From contig VLTN01000006.1 in NCBI GenBank assembly GCA_008330645.1, positions 496,001-560,000 of the forward strand: a stretch of DNA of 64,000 nt, written 5' to 3'. Below, one piece after another: positions 23,301 through 57,541 of this stretch; positions within the stretch are counted from its first letter, which is position 1; each line of letters starts with the position of its first letter. Both the position numbers and the translations under genes were made by a program. The notes under the pieces are model-generated. The model was given only the letters and a program-made list of their open reading frames with translations, made no database searches and was not told the origin of the DNA. This DNA is from Cafeteria roenbergensis. Taxonomy: Eukaryota; Sar; Bigyra; Bicosoecida; Cafeteriaceae.

Positions 23301-25689
23301 CGGCAAGGCCTCCAGCCACAGCGACCACGAAGCTCTGGTCGAGGCCGAGCGGGCTGCCAGGGCGGAAGTGGACGGCGTGACCGAGGTGATCCCGCAGCCC
23401 GAGGTTGACAAGGGCCTGGAGCAGCTGCGGCAGGCGCTGCAGGCGGCGCGCGAGTCGTTCGAGCGGGAGTGCATGCTGGACGAGGACGACATCGAGCAGA
23501 AGCGCGTGGCCAAGGCGAGCAAGCGCGCGCGCCGCGCGTCGGTCACGGCCCAGCGCGACATGCAGTGGCGAATTCGGCGCGGCAGCGTGTCGGTGCAGCG
23601 GGGGCAGGCGCAGCGGAAGGTACAGGAGGCCGGCGCTGCGGCAGCGAGGCGCGCGCGGGCCAGCGTGTTCGAGGCCAAGGGCGACGGGACCAACGAGGAG
23701 GAGGCGAGCGACGAAGAGCTCGCGGACGGGGCGGGCGAGGCCGGAAGGACTTACCAGGTGCGCCTGCGACCGTCTCGGGAGGAGCTTGAGGCGCTCGTGG
23801 AGGAGCCTCGGTGGCGCGAGCTGCTCCGCAAGCACATGAAGGGCGAGGGCTGCGAGGGCGAAATGGACTTTCTCGTGGCCGCAGCCGCCTTTAGGGAGCG
23901 GGCCCTGGCTGCCGCCGCAGGCGGGGGAATGCCCTCCAGCGTGGGCGAGGAGGCCTCACGGCTCAATCAGCGGTACATCGCGTCGGGGTCGCTCAGCACC
24001 GTGCCCGTGGGCATGCGCCGGCGCGTGAGGGAGGAGCTCGAGACAGGAGCCAACCCCGACACCTTCGACGAGGTGCTTCGCGTGGTCAGGGTTTCAATCG
24101 TCAGAGGGCCGCTTCGCCGCTTCTGGGTGTCGAAGAGAGGCTTGCGGTACCGTGCTGAGCGGGCACTCAGCATCGGATTGCCTGCCTGGACCTTGGAGCA
24201 GGTGTCCAAGCTGGCTGCTCCCTCCAAGGCGGAGCTGGTGGCCAGGCTGCAGAGCTGGTGCCGCGGGGTGGTGGCGCAGATCAAGTTCGGCCTCATGCTC
24301 CGGGCCGCCCGGCTGCAGGCCGAGGAGGAGGGCAGGGCGGAGCCCGGCACGACTCTTGCGATTGCTGCTCGCGCTGCAGAGGCGCGCGACACCCGCCGCC
24401 AGGCCAGGCGGGCCCGGTTGCGGCGCCGTCGTGGACTTCCCTCGCAAGAGGAGGAGGCGACAGACGCGGCCGAGAGCGCGGCGGCGGCCGGACGCCCTGC
24501 TTGGATGCCCCAGTCCACGTCCGTCGACGGGGACGACTTGGACGGTGCCGGCGAGAACGCTGCCCGTGCGCCGAGCGAGGCGGCGGAAGGCGATGCAGCT
24601 GGCTTTGGGGCTGGCGGGTTCGGGCCGGAGGCAACGGCCAAGGCTCAGGCGGAGGCTGCAGGCGGCCCACCGGCCGATGCAGCCTCTCCCGCTGGACCCG
24701 AGCAGGGCGATCACGACGCGCACCCGTCGCACCAGTCCGCGGGTCACTACGACGAGGCGGGCAACTGGGTGGACACCCCCTCGGGCTACTACGACGAGGC
24801 CGGAAACTGGGTTGATACGTCCACCGGATACTACGACCAGGCGGGCAACTGGGTTGACCTGACCCAAGGCTACTACGACGAGGCCGGCAACTGGATCGAC
24901 CCCGCCGCCCAGGCTCTAGGCTACTACGACGAGGCCGGCAACTGGGTGGACACGTCCGGCCAGCAGGCGGCCGGCTACTACGACGAGGCGGGCAACTGGG
25001 TGGACACCCCCTCAGGCTACTATGACGAGGCCGGAAACTGGGTCGATACGTCCACCGGATACTACGACCAGGCGGGCAACTGGGTGGCCATGGACCCTCA
25101 TTCCGCAGGGTACTACGACGAGTCGGGGGCATGGGTCGGAGCACAGAGCGGGGATGCGGCGCACGACCCGAGCCAGCTCCGGCCCGACGTGGTGTCCGTG
25201 GACGAGTACGGCTACCAGCACACCGCAACTGGCTACTACGACCCGTCTGGGGTCTTCTTCGCCTACGAGGAAGCCGGGGAGGCGGCAGCAGGGGCCAGCG
25301 CGCAGGCCGACGGAGGCATGCCAGCAGACGGCACCGAGTGGGGCGGCCTTGGGGGGGCGGTGCAATACGATGAGCAGTGGGGATACCACGACGACGGCGG
25401 ATACTGGGATGCAGAGAATCAATACGTGCCCTGGCCCACTTCGGGTGCGGACGCGAGCACCGGGGGGAGCGAGGCCCAGGGCGAAGCGGGTGAAGCCAAA
25501 CCGGCAGCGGAGACCACGGCAGGCCACAGCGACGCCGAGCAGGCCAGCCCGGACAGCGAGAGAGGGGGCGAGGTCGCACCGGACTCTGCAACCACAGGAG
25601 CCCCTTCGTCCGCGGAGGAGCCGACGCCCGCAGACGCCGACCCTGCTGCCCAGCATGGCGCAGCGGGAGCCAACCCGTCGGAAGCCTAA
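17380..25689 (+). CDS. Giant ankyrin / B-box-like / GYYDEAGNWVD-repeat protein
   Basis: A single exon of 2769 residues; the frame opens further upstream, but the ATG at 17380 has by far the best context and precedes the first conserved-looking sequence. Ankyrin repeats occupy about residues 131-320 (for example TPLVLAARLRDVRLMGAILE, GRTALSFACRFRRLATARLL). A zinc-finger block at about 815-855 (CGNCHELPARF, LCQRCVLWLHKQPGMRHHR) resembles a B-box without its middle ligand pair. A charged helical region includes a TPR-like stretch at about 1840-1955 (LDLAIFFSKHKRFGEAEKVV). The C-terminal part carries nine near-identical GYYDEAGNWVD units (2455-2587) and an acidic tail. Ankyrin and B-box modules bind proteins, so a large scaffold is likely; a cytoskeletal or ciliary site is a guess. 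I do not recognise a named family. Confidence 0.85.
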   Translation: MALAVAPASRSLPKGKAVLQHDAATGQVSVTAEARAHFMPWRQRAGRETDLVKPKQEVLPAWHSEQQEIIAQLKAYGCSIGTPGVNGMRRFEQLRRRLLEARERDGRRKRQTEFGNSKLRTALFVQFNKDRARRAVEAAVYEGDYDAVLRAVDAGGSANHVTRRGFTLLCTLCRAGKAEHVAALIALGADPNLPSPRDGVTPLVLAARLRDVRLMGAILEAGKDRGLDLNRPAVLDRDRHEGATALMVLAAYGAVAAPLMVRMLDAGAAPDAVTWRGRTALSFACRFRRLATARLLLEEGALPTHMDKGGLTPVDWLRCAVLERVRAADGQGAGSRAAALLAGEGGAGIGGRAGGGAGLVAPLALSGAGGGLAHGHSATLSGGRESLGSAALAGLGSAGRSGRSGGRSGRVSSHRSKGSRRNPDEADGPASRYAALLAREERLSARERREQAARSALSSLPALPGDASDSSDGEELGGGPGARRRVRLRLAGEGAGAAAGMGSPSGASRARAGESSGRRDEAAGGRAASGRGRRDSDSTGVAESVASGSSSAGGLGDSVSASDSEASSAVGLVDARAIDRLMTAEEQSILAALQQAKNRLRAHAAATGSGWESEEDLDAMVPEAALWSDDPFGDDHPDKEAVLAARRASLSDSTGVHAGGSGRDGAPGQARGRRGPPLLGRARKLQEQRESRAAVESKERAGAASRGEVQLFDTDDLRHATTSRGRPGSAESGRGAARRRRELLLGPGSLASAATPHSTATRALLRGAGRLTEEEILNGSLSTLGQEARTDRDRVLQRQSRVVFAPDTADKEELCGNCHELPARFKSLNTNTRLCQRCVLWLHKQPGMRHHRIKPLVPSQSAKGLRVRRVEEEAVGAAFLGGGLMGGRAAGSTLLESLRLGRALVAGMRAATDVAERDRRAKAEASRAAAAAEGSENLTALERVARARAAREAAQRQAKEEATGGSLIDRMRKARTDAKRAAAAETHSLDNDRRQLAFLEREDLLDEGDPALAEMRARVAAGEPRRAEALRRAKEVELDAVSRLVNPMEGGRGAAKGGFVRPGSRAWLAMVRGKAPPARGRRAREQQAGRPDSAASAMVGRGQEAFDAAEERRRLGHGVGPLPLSRPQSGGAVGDLGSGRRLAGQGGGLLLGAARLTARRAEQEAAAAAAQGRRTAVGGDGPDGPRAHGERPLTAGERAGLRDPTSHLGAAGREAAQRLRSVDSEARMAAALGSGAGGSDGGGAGYGLGASGGPISAAAGSAAALGVARPALGRLRLPGSRSAGMRPGSAPLRREWASARIPLSGAGSPSLAPPHSARLVAPLAPAAGVAGTAPVGAGAQFRSSPPGLQPGRLGPITSVLGRDGVSGGGGDPAGQASIRMARSASAEGGSLVFSAAQSGHGGRPVSGRRSSAVSSLPPPPVSARSSAPEPGASAGAAVVTSSRASRGRIGSSGQGGSARVSEASKRGSALGGGRSASGRRGHGGAGATGGRAPELQGDADRTQLAEGGRRRRRGGRQRRAEQRAAARADVLARKLARAEAARRVADGIKLAESQAQWGRAEELVASAKLAGRGGDGQQAGEEDDDSVGGAERDGDGDEGVDGDGDGPPTSVEAAAASVREQAEEAKRKRRREVLVASGVPLDRLADADDTGLLRAARRGGAGDVGARADQATTAAAHGYSGAVVLAAGEHPSGPRTDMLTGVSNLPGALAGAYGGRDGTGPRLTDEQRDREAVARYSRALALIGANGKEEAHGGRPGESLLDPMRGHGQAKAAAARAAATDSVFEAAGLDPHGVGANRNAKREQQLRKAALAQRRAAREAAKRRAQEAARQRVQAMHRDPPELDLAIFFSKHKRFGEAEKVVRGVMAEQVRVLGVADRAVALTFAVSCLVSREQGRAAESERSLEQAKDILAAFGAHPASSDAVRVAIEEGKVIRAAGRSSEEVAHLRERIQAAHRVQTVRANGKAAVLARLHSGKASSHSDHEALVEAERAARAEVDGVTEVIPQPEVDKGLEQLRQALQAARESFERECMLDEDDIEQKRVAKASKRARRASVTAQRDMQWRIRRGSVSVQRGQAQRKVQEAGAAAARRARASVFEAKGDGTNEEEASDEELADGAGEAGRTYQVRLRPSREELEALVEEPRWRELLRKHMKGEGCEGEMDFLVAAAAFRERALAAAAGGGMPSSVGEEASRLNQRYIASGSLSTVPVGMRRRVREELETGANPDTFDEVLRVVRVSIVRGPLRRFWVSKRGLRYRAERALSIGLPAWTLEQVSKLAAPSKAELVARLQSWCRGVVAQIKFGLMLRAARLQAEEEGRAEPGTTLAIAARAAEARDTRRQARRARLRRRRGLPSQEEEATDAAESAAAAGRPAWMPQSTSVDGDDLDGAGENAARAPSEAAEGDAAGFGAGGFGPEATAKAQAEAAGGPPADAASPAGPEQGDHDAHPSHQSAGHYDEAGNWVDTPSGYYDEAGNWVDTSTGYYDQAGNWVDLTQGYYDEAGNWIDPAAQALGYYDEAGNWVDTSGQQAAGYYDEAGNWVDTPSGYYDEAGNWVDTSTGYYDQAGNWVAMDPHSAGYYDESGAWVGAQSGDAAHDPSQLRPDVVSVDEYGYQHTATGYYDPSGVFFAYEEAGEAAAGASAQADGGMPADGTEWGGLGGAVQYDEQWGYHDDGGYWDAENQYVPWPTSGADASTGGSEAQGEAGEAKPAAETTAGHSDAEQASPDSERGGEVAPDSATTGAPSSAEEPTPADADPAAQHGAAGANPSEA
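24742..25140 (+). repeat. Coding repeat array, GYYDEAGNWVD units
   Basis: Nine copies of an 11-residue core (G-H/Y-Y-D-E/Q-A/S-G-N/A-W-V/I-D/A/G) separated by 2-7-residue linkers, followed by degenerate copies (GYYDPSGVF, HDDGGYWD). The block 24742-24855 recurs at 24973-25086 with only a few synonymous or near-synonymous base changes, so a three-unit block was duplicated recently. Tyr-Tyr-Asp and Trp spacing recalls aromatic repeat modules such as OCRE, but I cannot assign it. Confidence 0.9.
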
Positions 25690-51637: not shown

Positions 51638-53437
51638 CTACCCTTCAGTGGTCGCCACGAGCACCTGGGACGTGAGCCCCATCTGCGTCACGTAATGCAC
51701 CCCGCGCACCGCAAATCCGGAGGCCGGGTTCACGAACGCCTCTGCTTCGAGCGGCCTGCACCCGCAAACCAGCGCCGGACTGATGCCGTACGCCGCGACC
51801 CAAGCTGCCGTCAGCGCGTCAGCAAAGGGCGTTGCGCCGAAGCTGAGGCAAGCTACGAGCAGCAGGCCAGTGTGCGGCCGCAGCGCCATCCGCGCCTGGG
51901 CAAGCAAGGCCCGAATGCGGGCCTCCGGCATGGCATCCAGCACATAGGTAACCACAAACACGTCAACCGACCCTGGTGCCACAAGGGCGTCAGCTGCCCG
52001 CCCCACGCTTGCTCCCACCCAGCCCGGCGCCGACGCGTCCTGCAGCACCACCCGCAGACTCTGCGGAGTCCCCCGCTGCACCGAGCCGCCCGCCACAGCC
52101 TTGGCCAGTCTCTCCCGCGTAATGTCGGCCATCGTCTCCGAGACCTCGAGGCCAAGGTACTCGACGGTCAGCGGCGCAGCAGTGCTGCCGCCTCCTCCCG
52201 CCGCCGGCGCCGCTGCGGAGACCTCCCCAAGCACCCTCAGGGCCAGCCTTCCTGTGCCGCAGCCGGCCTCGACAACGCGAAACGGCTCTGACGCAGGCAG
52301 CCTTCTCGGCATAGCTCGCCCATCTGCGGGGGCCTTCCCGGGCGGTGCCCGCAGCGCCACCGCCAGCCTGTGCGCGCCCTTGAACTGCTCCGCCACCGCT
52401 GCCGCGGCAGCGTCCGTGTAGAGCGCCTCCAGGTCCTGCCATGCGCCCATGCCGTCGTAGATACGGCCCACTGCCTCTGCAGGAAGCGCGCCGTCAACGA
52501 ACAGCGTCGCCGCTCCGCCGAGCCACGCAGCAGTCCCGTCAACAGCAGACCTGGCTGTGGCTTCGTCCGCCGCATCGGCTGCCGCTTTGGCTGTGGCTTC
52601 GTCCGCCGCATCGGCTGCCGCTTCGGCTGTGGCGTTGGCCGCAGCATCGGCTGCCGCTGCCGCGCGGCCGTTTGTGGGCGAGGGCGACCCTCCTGTTGCC
52701 GGGGGCGCTGCGGTCCGCGCCCCCGTCCCGCGAATCGCCGCCACGCGCATCTCGGGCGTCCCCTCCTCGTGCACGCCCAGCCAGGGGCCTGCGCTCGCAG
52801 CGCCGCCCAGGCACTGCGCGCAGAGCAGCCCTGGAAGGCCGCAGGCGGCAGCAGCGGCGAGGCACGCCAGCAAGCCCCCCAGAAAGCCAGCAAGCTGGCC
52901 CGGTGTGTGGCCCAGGCCAACGAAAGGGACCGACAGAGGGTCGGCAACATTTGGGGACGGCGAGCCGGTGCTTCCGCGGGAGCACACGGCCGGGACCACG
53001 ACCCAAAGCGCCGCGTGGGCCACGGCTGCGGTCGCCACGGCCATCCCAGAGCAGCAAGGTAAGGCCCTGCCGTCCCACGTGGCGACGATCGTGCCGACTC
53101 CGGCGATTGCGTGAGCTGCAACCACTGGCGCAAGCGCCCACCACGTGCCCTTGCCCGACGCCGCGGCCGCCCCCTCCACGACAGCCACGGCCCCCGCGAG
53201 GAACGACATCCACGCCACGGCGGACACCCGGCTCGCATGCTCAGGGCGCCTGTCGGGGAACACTCGGCGCGAGCATGCAGCTGCCGACAAGGGTGCCGCG
53301 GCCATCGTTGCCACAGCCAGCGGCATGCCCACACCGGCTGCGACAACCGCTTCGAGGCTGCACATCGCCAACGTTTGATCGCCACGGGCAAGGGTGGCGC
53401 GCTTGGCGGGGGGGCGGTGGTCAGAGGGCGCACCCAT
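51638..53437 (-). CDS. SAM-dependent methyltransferase with N-terminal membrane spans
   Basis: A single exon of 599 residues when started at the ATG at 53437; in-frame ATGs at 53479, 53470 and 53467 are alternatives, all downstream of the neighbouring stop at 53586. The first 210 residues hold about five hydrophobic segments (for example AVVAAGVGMPLAVATMAAAP, AVAWMSFLAGAVAVVEGAAA, ALAPVVAAHAIAGVGTIVAT, GQLAGFLGGLLACLAAAAA). A low-complexity linker with a 36-bp tandem repeat follows. The C-terminal half is a class I methyltransferase: motif I FRVVEAGCGTGRLALRVL (about 385), acidic LGLEVSETMADITRERL, motif IV VDVFVVTYVLDAMPE and LRPHTGLLLVACLSFG. Such enzymes transfer methyl groups from S-adenosylmethionine. 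The substrate is unknown; membrane anchoring suggests a lipid, quinone or membrane-protein target, by inference. Confidence 0.72.
   Translation of the reverse strand: MGAPSDHRPPAKRATLARGDQTLAMCSLEAVVAAGVGMPLAVATMAAAPLSAAACSRRVFPDRRPEHASRVSAVAWMSFLAGAVAVVEGAAAASGKGTWWALAPVVAAHAIAGVGTIVATWDGRALPCCSGMAVATAAVAHAALWVVVPAVCSRGSTGSPSPNVADPLSVPFVGLGHTPGQLAGFLGGLLACLAAAAACGLPGLLCAQCLGGAASAGPWLGVHEEGTPEMRVAAIRGTGARTAAPPATGGSPSPTNGRAAAAADAAANATAEAAADAADEATAKAAADAADEATARSAVDGTAAWLGGAATLFVDGALPAEAVGRIYDGMGAWQDLEALYTDAAAAAVAEQFKGAHRLAVALRAPPGKAPADGRAMPRRLPASEPFRVVEAGCGTGRLALRVLGEVSAAAPAAGGGGSTAAPLTVEYLGLEVSETMADITRERLAKAVAGGSVQRGTPQSLRVVLQDASAPGWVGASVGRAADALVAPGSVDVFVVTYVLDAMPEARIRALLAQARMALRPHTGLLLVACLSFGATPFADALTAAWVAAYGISPALVCGCRPLEAEAFVNPASGFAVRGVHYVTQMGLTSQVLVATTEG
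52553..52660. repeat. 36-bp coding tandem repeat, three copies
   Basis: Units begin with ggctgtgg (third copy ggctgtggc with changes) at 52553, 52589 and 52625. Copies 1 and 2 are almost identical and copy 3 is more diverged. In the methyltransferase gene each unit encodes an Ala/Asp/Glu-rich 12-residue block in the linker. The frame is kept. Confidence 0.85.
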
Positions 53438-53585
53438 GCAGTCTTGAATTGCCGCTGTGCAGAGCATCATCACACGCATCGGTTCGAGACGAGGCCAAAA
53501 CATGCAATGCAGCAGTGCAGCTGGGGGCGCGGGGAGGCGAATCACGAGCAAGTGGCAAACACCACTGCTGCGTGCGAGGGAATCA

Positions 53586-56500
53586 TCACACGCTGACACA
53601 GAACTTGCCTCGGGTGATCTGCCACCCCGTGTTGCCCGTCCGGCTGGCCACAGGCTGCAGCGTGCGCGACAGCACGCTGCACACAGTGCCCAGCAATGCC
53701 TCGGGTGTCGCCACAGCCTCGCTCTCCCCAACGACGGCGTCGGCGTCGGCGCACTCCTCCCGCGAGGACGCCATCACAAAGACGGGAACCACGGGGTGCC
53801 CCGTCACCGGCCTGCGCGCGTGCGCAATGACGGCTTGCGAGCCGCAGCTCACCAGCCCAGTGAGCGTCTCAGCCCAGTCCGTGGTCGGGCAGGCCATGAT
53901 ATGAAGCCCGCCCCCCGCAGGCCGCAGCACGCCGTCAACCACGTCCCCCCTGCTCGCCGCCCCCGCAAGCCGGTCCGGCCCGCCCTTGCCAGGAGTGTCC
54001 CATGCCTCCCCGCAGCCCAGCACGCGCTGCCCGAACGCGATCGTGGGCGCGAGCTTTTGTCCCTCACCCTCCAGCATGTCCTGGAAGCAGGGCGCCTCCA
54101 GGAGCTCGCTCGTCTCGGGGACGACCACGCTGCCGCCGTTGATCACCGCCTGCCGGATCGCTTGGCAGAGAAGGGAGGCGGCAGGCAGCGCAACCGGGCC
54201 GGCCGTTGCGACTGCCAGGACGGCAGTGCTCAGCAGTGCCGGCGCCGTCTCGTCGAGCGGCGCAGCTCCTGACCCCAGGGCGTCCGTGGCAAGCTGCTCT
54301 TCGGCGCACTGGCCCTCAAACCACTTCTCGATCTTGGCCGAAACCGCCTCTATTCCCCCGTCGAGCTGCACGCTGACCCACCCGAAGTCGTCCTCGCTCC
54401 TGCCCGCGGCGCGCACCGCCGCCCGCATCTCGTCGTTGTGCAGCTTCTCGCACCCGTGCTCCAGCAGGGCGCCCCGCCACACACCGGGGTGCAGCAGGTG
54501 GCCGGCCATGGACGCGAAGTACTCGGCCATGGGGCCCGACGACCCGCAGCCCTCAGTGTGCGGCAACGCCACGAACCGCGTGACGTGCCGAGCGAGCGAC
54601 GGTGCAGCGGCGGCGGGTGCAGCGGGGGACAGCGGCGGCGACGGCAGCGCCTCGTCCGCGGGGTCTGGCGAAGCAGGGCCCCAGGATACGGCCTTGGAGG
54701 CGGAGCCAGCGGCCGTCGCACTGCCGCTGGCCCGCTCTCGCGCCAGGCGGTCATTCAAGCGATCTACAACCAGCTGGGCCACCTGGCCAGAGCAAAGAGA
54801 CGTCGGCAGCACCAACGCGATGCGGTCTGCCACCCAGGCAGTGGTGCCGGGAGGACCAGACGACCGCAGAGCCGAGAAGGAGGGGCCGGCAGCGCTCACG
54901 CCGCTTGCGGACGGCTTGGCATCTGGGTCGGCCGCCGTCAGCGCGCCCGGGAGTGCGGCCGGCGCTTCTCCTGGCGCACGCGCCAGCCGTGGCAGCAAGG
55001 GAGCAAGCGAGATGGCGGCGCCTGTGGGCTCGGGAGCGGCAGCCGCGGCGGCATATCCTTCGGCCGACGTCTGCGGCCAGGCCCGCCAGATTGACACCTG
55101 GGATCGGCCAGTGCGCTCTCCCGCCGTGCCACGGCCCGAGGACACAGCGAGGGTGAGACGCAGCACCTGGTCGGTCAGCGTCTCCATGGGAGTGCCGTCA
55201 AGGTATGCGCCTGCGTTGACGTCCATGTCGGCCGCCAAGCGCGAGAAGCGCCCCGTGTTCGTCACTATCTTGCAAGTGGGCACGAGGGGGAAGTTCGTGA
55301 TGGAGCCGTTGCCGGTTGTGAAGAAGATGATGTTGCAGCCAGCGGCGACCTGTCCCGCAATGGACTCGATGTCGTTGCCGGGGCTGTTCATGAAGATGTA
55401 TCCGCCTCTGCTGGAGCCGCCTCTGCCCGAGCCTTCCTCGTCGCCCTCGGCAGCGACTCGCTGGCCGTACTCGATAACGTCATCGAGACGGACGTCGGCG
55501 GGTTTCTTCGTGGCCGCACCCAGGCTCTTCAGCGCGATGTTGTACAGCCCGCGGTAGTTGTTCCCGACGCTGGGGTTGGCCTCCACAGTCTGGCTGTGCC
55601 AGCCAAGGCGCTCCCTAAACTCTGACACCATCTCCACGAACCGACGCGCCACAGCAGCCGAGCGCACTTTGGAAAGGACCCACGACTCGGCGCCAATCAG
55701 CTCGTCCGTCTCCGCCAGGACGGCAGACCCACCGCGGCGAATCAGCTCCCGGGCAACGGCCCCGGCAAGCGGGTTGCCGCTGACCCCTGAGAAGGCGTCC
55801 GACCCGCCGCACTGAAGCGCCACGCACAGCTCCGAAGCCGGCCGCTCCGTCCGAACGGCGAGCGATGCTGCCCGAGCCAGCGGCTCACCAGCCGCCACCA
55901 CCTGCTCGATCGCACTGGACACGCCGGCCGATCCGACGGTGACGAAGGCATGCGGCACGTGGTCCAGCGGGTAGCCCTGCTCTCGCATCGCCGCCTCGAG
56001 GCGGTCGCAGCTCAGGGCCTCGTCGCCGCGGCTCAGGACGACCACGGCGCCCACGTTGCAGTGCACAGCCAGTCCTGCAAGCACGCGAATCACCAGGTCC
56101 AAGTTGGTGGGCTCCACGGTAGCGTCGCCGCCTGCCTCAGTGTGCTCGATCGGCTCGACGCCGCTGAGCGACCCAACGAGGGCGCCAGACTCGCTGGACA
56201 GGCGCTCCCGCAGGGCTTTGGCGCTCAGGCGGGCAAGCGCGGACGTGCGCGACGTCGTCGGGATCACTGCCACAAAGTTTCGGGTGCCCGAGCCCCTGCC
56301 GCCAGGGCGGAGGAACCCCCAAAAAGTCGCCGTGCCGCTGGGCACCTCCGAGGCAGCGAGCCTCCCGACCTGGTCCCCGACGCGCACGTCAGCCTCGGAG
56401 AAGGTGTACGGCGTGATGAAGTCCTCAAACTGCGGCCGCAGGGAGGAGAGCGAGGCGGGGACAGCCGGAGGTTCAGTTTTGAATACTCCGCATGAGCAAA

Positions 56501-57541
56501 TTTCGTCCAGCAGCTGTCGGCGACTCGGTCGCGTCCGCGCGCGCCGCCTGCCCCGATCGTCCCGCGTCGGCCTGGCGCGCTCGGGGGCCAGGAGAGCCGG
56601 AGGGCGGTGACGTGCGCAGTCGATCGGCGGCCTCGGCTTTTGGCGACTCGTCTCACATTGACCCGAGGTGGCAGCTCGAACGGCACCCGCCTCATCTCGA
56701 GGGAGTGGAGCATCGTGGCGTTGACGACGTAGGAGCCTGCGACACGCGCAGGGCGGGGACGCGCAGGCAAGAGCGAACGGCCGCGCGCAGCGGTGGCTGG
56801 GGGAGCAGGGGCCAATCGGAGGCCGGGCCGCGCCAGTTGCAGCGAAAGGGGGCTTTCGGCGCAAGCTCGCAAGACAAGTCTGGCCGTCCTTCCGACCAAA
56901 GAGCGTGCGGCAGCACAGCAACCGCCCCGGCCCGCTCCCCGTGGTCTGCCTGGCGCACGCGGGCACTTAAGGCGACTGTGGCAGGCGCGCAGACCCCCGT
57001 GGGTCTCACCCTCGTTGATGCGGCGAGTTGCCCTCCCAAAGCCGCTCCCCCAGCTCGTCAGCAGCTCGCCCGCCTCGATGGCGTGGGCTGCGAACCGGTG
57101 CCCCTCGAGCACGGTGAAGTCCAGCCTCAGCGCCCGGCCGCTGGGCATTTCGATGACCGACCCTGCCTCAATCGTCCGGGTCGCCACCGCGCAGTTGTCC
57201 CCCTCGGAGGCGAACCTTGCGACCAATGCGAAGCGCAAGCGCCCAAGGCCGTCGATCGCAGGGGGATTGCCGGCCGCAGCAGCCGCGTCAGGCTCGTACT
57301 CAAGGGCAACATGCCGTCGCCTCTGCGCGTGCATGCCCACAGCGGTCGGACGGGCCGAATGCGGGGAGGCGCGGGCGCCCTGGCCCTTGTGGATTTGGGG
57401 CTGGGCGTCGGGACTTGTCGCAGCGTGCGGCAGAGTTGTGAGACGCGTCTTAACGTTGGCAGAGCGCACCGCCTGCCCAGCAGCTCGGCGAGCGCACCCA
57501 GCCGAGCTGGAAAGGACGCCACGCGCGCCGGGAAATACCAT
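53586..57541 (-). CDS. Double-length UxaA/GarD-type sugar-acid dehydratase
   Basis: Three exons: 57541-57010, 56736-56657 and 56429-53586; 1151 residues, about twice the usual 500. UxaA/GarD enzymes are iron-dependent dehydratases of sugar acids (altronate, galactarate). Exons 1-2 hold the SAF domain (GDNCAVATRTIEAGSVIEM, SYVVNATMLHSLEMRRVPFE). Exon 3 starts a complete UxaA-like unit: SGTRNFVAVIPTTS, HTEAGG (about 303), CGGSDAFSGVSGNPLAG (about 411), ANPSVGNNYRGL and SPGNDIESIAGQVAAGC (about 553). After a Pro/Ala/Ser linker a second, more diverged unit follows (about 741-1151): RIALVLPTS, HTEGCG (about 829), LHPGVWRGALLEHGCEKL, GGSVVVPETSELLEA. Each unit lacks motifs the other keeps. The first 45 residues are Arg/Ser/Ala-rich without acids, like a mitochondrial presequence; the ATG at 57334 is an alternative start. 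Confidence 0.85.

Follow-up and report, generated by a model that had tools for sequence, protein, structure and literature searches.

The single-chain members of the UxaA/GarD superfamily, among them D-altronate, galactarate, D-arabinonate and D-idonate dehydratases, share a SAF domain, a second domain and a C-terminal domain, four cysteines and the fold of GarD, and the E. coli galactarate dehydratase GarD itself (6u7l) is one unit with all four cysteines. For D-arabinonate dehydratase, also a single chain, the available parts of the published account describe a brown protein with a rubredoxin-like ferric electron paramagnetic resonance signal beside another signal, and propose Cys134, Cys173, Cys208 and Cys276, its only conserved cysteines and conserved in the superfamily, as the ligands of one iron; cysteine-to-serine tests are named there in a figure legend, and the authors call for further analysis of the iron site (PMC6336799). 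Here we describe a gene of the protist Cafeteria roenbergensis, found in a stretch of 64,000 nucleotides of contig VLTN01000006.1 (the window), whose product, unlike these single-chain enzymes, has the second and C-terminal domains twice, with the cysteines split three and one between the copies. We think it probable that this protein is a covalent, obligate pseudo-heterodimer of an iron-dependent dehydratase of the superfamily, in which one composite site is live and the other dead; the contact between its halves is inferred from sequence.

The gene and the parts of its two units lie in the window as follows.

57541-53586, minus strand: tandem dehydratase gene, with three exons and two introns.
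55866..56318, minus strand: second domain of unit 1 (GD_AH_second), in which the three conserved cysteines are all lost (PTTSRTSA at 56261, HTEAGG at 56144, RGDEA at 56030) and GTRN is kept; assigned from Pfam, motif positions and the family pattern.
55077..55838, minus strand: C-terminal domain of unit 1 (GD_AH_C; Pfam 262 bits), intact, with CGGSDAFSG at 55811, NPSVGN at 55577, SPGND at 55385 and TGNGSITNFP at 55316.
54837..55076 (approximate bounds), minus strand: linker between the units, with a predicted local distance difference test score (pLDDT) below 50 at model residues 481-484, 492-500 and 504-511.
54280..54836 (approximate bounds), minus strand: second domain of unit 2, with the three cysteines present (PTSLCSGQ at 54806, HTEGCG at 54560, HGCE at 54458) and GTRN lost.
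53589..54279 (approximate bounds), minus strand: C-terminal domain of unit 2, decayed, without CGGSD; CPTTD aligns with SPGND.

The encoded order is leader, SAF, unit 1 and unit 2, so that SAF, second and C-terminal domains follow one another as in the superfamily. Pfam finds GD_AH_second (PF04295) in two stretches and GD_AH_C (PF20629) in one, in unit 1 (4.8e-78), with no second GD_AH_C stretch in the protist protein; the SAF match is borderline (20.9 bits, just under the cut-off of 21). The first-pass annotation had read a SAF domain and two UxaA-like units in series, the first keeping CGGSDAFSG, a PSxGN-like block and SPGND with HTEAGG and RGDEA in place of lost motifs, the second keeping HTEGCG and HGCE and having lost CGGSDAFSG and SPGND. 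The spliced protein bears out this description, with HTEAGG at residue 300, RGDEA at 338, CGGSDAFSG at 411, NPSVGN at 489, SPGND at 553, HTEGCG at 828 and HGCE at 862. Overlooked at that stage was the first conserved cysteine of the family, Cys750 in the PTSLC of unit 2, which has no counterpart in the PTTSRTSA of unit 1. Judged by spacing and by the single-chain homologues, the motifs PTxxC, HTxGC, GxGCE and CGGSD would correspond to Cys134, Cys173, Cys208 and Cys276 of D-arabinonate dehydratase, and of these four proposed ligands unit 2 of the tandem carries three and unit 1 the remaining one.

A search of plasmid proteins gave matches in 313 records, two of which cover at least 80% of the query; these two, from Rubrobacter indicoceani (42.6% identity) and Pantoea soli (35.4%), align with it end to end, and neither has the low-complexity insert found in the protist unit 2 second domain. 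From a scan of bacterial and archaeal genomes we took the best 80 of at least 539 relatives, and all tandem counts given here rest on these and the two plasmid genes. All 82 bacterial sequences are tandems, as expected for the top of a ranked list, and the 76 complete cases are single uninterrupted frames of 875-1067 codons from the first start. The fusion is thus a bacterial family also present in this eukaryote, and a fusion confined to protists, the other possibility considered, is ruled out. The tree of full-length proteins (77 rows) carries 13 phylum labels among its labelled rows. Within phyla the distribution is patchy, since a tandem-length frame was found in 1 of 101 genomes in the phylum of a Caldilineaceae genome and in 1 of 149 in that of Alicyclobacillus tolerans, in each case the very genome on which the search was centred. 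A scan of viral contigs with a single protein as query, which is sensitive to close relatives only, gave no viral relatives.

The complementary split is present in 83 of 83 tandems, including the window protein (76 by alignment and 7 by motif, the latter being six loci cut by contig ends, L029, L037, L050, L052, L063 and L068, and L017, in which no junction was found by pattern). For the alignment, the 76 full tandems, window protein included, were cut at the junction into 152 units and joined by 34 single-chain homologues and 30 split-gene proteins. Unit 1 keeps cysteines 1 to 4 in 0, 0, 0 and 76 of 76 tandems and unit 2 in 76, 76, 76 and 0; none of the 152 units has all four, and the full set is reached only across the two. 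Four cysteines in one chain are found in GarD 6u7l as aligned and in 31 of the 34 single-chain homologues (the exceptions are L085, L105 and L110); these were picked from the best matches and are mostly from Bacillota, with L139, which is cut short, and the A. tolerans set L109/L145 left out. Of 49 C-domain positions invariant in four-cysteine chains, 36 are retained in unit 1 against 5 in unit 2, and of 20 such second-domain positions unit 1 keeps 9 and unit 2 keeps 8, mostly different ones, GxRN being in unit 1 and the cysteines in unit 2. In the protist protein, the presumed live halves are the better conserved: compared with 75 family members, the unit 1 C-domain and the unit 2 second domain reach median identities of 0.63 and 0.47, whereas the remaining two halves reach 0.36 and 0.34.

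The same partition occurs as separate genes. In A. tolerans, two nearby genes (A and B) divide the cysteines in this way, with a SAF gene between them. Gene B is strong in 16 of the 59 genomes searched in the order of Alicyclobacillus, and the gene order A-SAF-B with the three-and-one split was found in 15 of the 17 loci read there. In those 15, A keeps cysteines 1 to 4 in 0, 0, 0 and 15 cases and B in 15, 15, 15 and 0; the two loci outside this set are L144 (SAF and B, no A) and L145 (most cysteines lost), and a genome in which gene B is broken over two contigs (G189) was left out. Gene B also matched 174 plasmid records, and among the matches listed we opened eight, from seven haloarchaea and Priestia. 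All seven haloarchaeal regions have three adjacent genes, with the fourth cysteine alone in A and the first three in B, which has no CGGSD, although in L196 the fourth column of B is occupied by a cysteine outside any such motif. The Priestia plasmid carries two genes, for SAF and for a four-cysteine protein.

Further loci depart from the common arrangement. L144 (3325-4568), a second A. tolerans copy, has SAF and a gene B that is 97% identical, and no match to gene A was found in the stretch read. Lone A-like proteins of 384 and 400 residues without cysteines 1-3 are encoded at L147 5113-6264 and L146 4880-6079 (they are the rows L105 and L110), and no B partner was recognised by eye in either stretch. 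In the haloarchaeal L195, a small extra annotated frame lies between SAF and B.

Two described enzymes resemble the split forms in having more than one gene per enzyme, sulfolactate sulfo-lyase (SuyAB) and the L-fuconate dehydratase of Paraburkholderia mimosarum (PMC6336799, in the parts available). SuyAB is stated there to be without the conserved cysteines (PMC6336799), unlike split A and B, and the P. mimosarum enzyme may or may not be of the A/B type. In the available parts of a further paper, LguB of Luteolibacter, a member of the Verrucomicrobiota, converts D-altronate to 2-keto-3-deoxygluconate with iron and dithiothreitol (PMC12632266). Its phylum also holds tandems and LguB itself may be either a tandem or a single chain; if it is a tandem, the activity of the family would already be shown. 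In the open-access literature searched, outside which most subscription papers lie, we found no description of the tandem or of its three-and-one architecture, and the available parts of PMC9795676, PMC12370193, PMC13406643, PMC11199699 and PMC11998424 contain nothing on a tandem architecture.

To place these units in a fold, we compared predicted models. AlphaFold gave a mean pLDDT of 83.4 and a predicted template modelling score (pTM) of 0.87 for exon 3 of the window gene, and 91.0 and 0.91 for the full tandem of Paenibacillus alginolyticus. With Foldseek, the best solved fold for both was GarD 6u7l (E = 3e-25 and 3e-33; best template modelling score by target length 0.72 and 0.85), the only full-length solved relative by sequence or fold in the copies of the PDB searched; the SAF part of the Paenibacillus tandem matched 3k3s and 3laz. 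Because the models are confident and GarD is their best fold, a defined packing of the parts is predicted, with at least one unit built like a GarD subunit. The window protein is not GarD itself, since against the GarD equivalog TIGR03248 (cut-off 730.85) exon 3 scores 134.4 bits, and the Rubrobacter (165.2) and Pantoea (181.4) proteins also fall below. The GarD dimer is reportedly joined through the second domain.

These results suggest how the tandem might work. The three cysteines of unit 2 and the one of unit 1 would together hold a single iron where the two units meet, and the opposite pairing, of the unit 1 second domain with the unit 2 C-domain, would be a dead site kept for structure. 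The simplest route would start from an ancestral homodimer in which, as in ordinary UxaA/GarD homodimers on this view, the second domain of each subunit meets the C-domain of its partner to form two equivalent sites. Duplication would then let one of the two decay, and the partners would stay together because they are fused, as in the tandem, or because their genes are in tight order, as in the split forms. The reaction would be the loss of water from a sugar acid to give a 2-keto-3-deoxy acid. The shared site is well supported because conservation, the match to the four cysteines proposed in the literature as iron ligands and the two-gene forms with the same split all favor it. Of the two outcomes raised in the first-pass annotation, a site shared between the units is favored on these grounds, although not as a novelty of the protist, since bacteria have the fusion. 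Two different fates, in the sense of two separate functions, is the less likely outcome, as no single unit among the 83 tandems holds a complete site.

One live composite site in the tandem would place the superfamily's active site between subunits, and the question then arises of how often the decay has occurred. Trees of the C-domain from which the cysteine column was omitted reject the grouping of tandem unit 1 with the A proteins of either split type as a clade (p = 0.0099 and 0.0086); the Alicyclobacillus A falls beside two four-cysteine chains (94/82) and the haloarchaeal A among others (92/90). In second-domain trees, units 1 and 2 of the tandems group together against all others (100/99 and 100/97). 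These careful searches, for which a quick-tree clade test was set aside, left out the long-branch rows L002, L085, L095, L105, L110 and L138 and near-duplicates. Because the C-domain trees reject tandem unit 1 with either split A, the partition appears to have at least two origins, and possibly three; the second domain does not settle the number. With somewhat less assurance than for the window protein, we lean towards an active site between subunits across the whole superfamily, with complementary decay in at least two and perhaps three instances (the bacterial and eukaryote tandem, the Alicyclobacillus type and the haloarchaeal A-SAF-B type), each with one live and one dead site and the iron held by three cysteines and one.

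Several observations weigh against a shared site or against its repeated origin. If the GarD site lies wholly inside one subunit, GarD-like packing within unit 1 would argue against sharing. The tandem sample, drawn from the top of a ranked list, is biased towards proteins resembling that of the window. In a third A-SAF-B set from an A. tolerans genome (L145 4991-7298), A keeps CGGSD and B has only the first of its three cysteines. The genes next to bacterial tandems form a loose set, with a short-chain dehydrogenase/reductase (SDR) at 11, an aldo/keto reductase at 7, Amidohydro_2 at 4 and an FAA-hydrolase at 3 of 68 loci. As to origins, a clade of the Alicyclobacillus and haloarchaeal split A proteins is not rejected by the C-domain (p = 0.067), the second-domain trees reject neither a single origin for the proteins with three cysteines (p = 0.35-0.59, and 0.08 in another test) nor the joining of tandem unit 1 and split A in one clade (p = 0.20), and the quick tree search rejected no such clade, constrained trees there beating free ones for unit 1 with split A and for unit 2 with split B.

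The best-surviving alternative, which we nonetheless regard as unlikely, is that the two units have different jobs, the unit 1 C-domain with its HTEGG second domain being an independent enzyme that lacks this iron, while the three-cysteine domain in unit 2 serves separately in iron binding or regulation. The second domain of unit 1 does indeed not drift freely, as its H-T-E is invariant in 71 of 71 aligned tandems and it also keeps GTRN. However, such a division of labor would leave the invariant unit 2 cysteines in need of another partner, single-chain homologues as a rule have all four cysteines in one chain, and the partition recurs as two separate genes in two other groups. Less probable again, and in our view improbable, is that catalysis, in a relaxed form, belongs to unit 1 alone, or that the protein as a whole is inactive, with the remainder a scaffold: the decay of the unit 2 C-domain and the loss of most cysteines from both L145 genes would fit, but unit 2 keeps its three cysteines in all 83 tandems, across the 13 phylum labels and a eukaryote. 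That two neighboring protist genes were read as one through an error of gene model or assembly is barely credible, for although two introns near the 5' end and the low-complexity stretch between the units might invite it, exon 3 is a single open frame, both units align end to end, and the uninterrupted bacterial chain already excludes it for bacteria.

If the shared composite site is correct, decay repeated in separate lineages would amount to a natural experiment identifying the residues that have to come together, with one copy giving three cysteines and the other one, and would be a clear example of how complementary decay produces an obligate pseudo-heterodimer. Whether the active site lies inside or between subunits becomes directly testable, in a superfamily with one full-length solved structure in the PDB copies searched and an iron site flagged for further analysis in the available parts of PMC6336799. 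In practical terms, neither half nor the whole tandem should be annotated as an ordinary UxaA.

FAA-hydrolases and SDRs are known partners in non-phosphorylating sugar-acid routes. In the Alicyclobacillus order, an FAA-hydrolase gene and an SDR gene are each present in at least 9 of 15 split loci (L143 counted; regions of 5 to 10 kilobases), the two families having been checked on examples. Neighboring genes suggest an aldonate or uronate route, and taken together (SDR, aldo/keto reductase, lactonase-type amidohydrolase, mannitol-dehydrogenase family, FAA-hydrolase) they agree on no single substrate. At L010 6686-12607, genes of the aldo/keto reductase, Amidohydro_2 and mannitol-dehydrogenase families come after the tandem on its strand; they make up a candidate route from sugar to acid through which the substrate could be identified. 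The L145 set stands near rhaM-type mutarotase, Amidohydro_2 and SDR genes, in what looks like a deoxysugar cluster. Because both its genes have lost most cysteines, the iron site can evidently be lost, and some members may work without it or be dying; L145 is possibly such an iron-free or dying form.

The protist gene has the following exons.

57010..57541, minus strand: exon 1, leader (putative start) and most of the SAF domain (SAF at about 57199-57010), from the open reading frame, the Pfam SAF match of 20.9 bits and the donor GTGAGA at 57009.
56657..56736, minus strand: exon 2, end of the SAF region and linker (SYVVNATMLHSLEMRRVPFELPPRVN), from the acceptor GCAG, the donor GTGAGA and a bacterial homologue matched across the joints by eye.
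53586..56429, minus strand: exon 3, both UxaA-like units, 947 codons and a stop in a single open frame.

Counted from the ATG at 57541, the putative start, the spliced product has 1151 residues, and the introns, of 273 and 227 nucleotides, are both GT-AG. The splice model is supported by bacterial homologues, which are uninterrupted and match across both joints in a by-eye comparison. In a quick full-length tree, the protist gene lies among Verrucomicrobiota, Pseudomonadota and Planctomycetota (Shimodaira-Hasegawa-like approximate likelihood ratio test 95) on a long branch (1.61). The gene may or may not have come from a Verrucomicrobiota-like donor, as the group is of mixed phyla and the branch long.

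The surroundings in the window are eukaryotic, with PX, IBR, GT41, choline transporter-like and ankyrin domains, an RGS domain just over its cut-off, and GT-AG introns; a nucleoside transporter adjoins the tandem gene. Directly downstream of that gene, a minus-strand frame at 51638-53731 has a weak match to Methyltransf_12, below the cut-off, and contains a 36-base tandem repeat at 52552-52658. A 42-base tandem repeat of 7.6 copies occupies window positions 24746-25087, within a long open frame that also matches ankyrin, RGS and EAGR-box domains.

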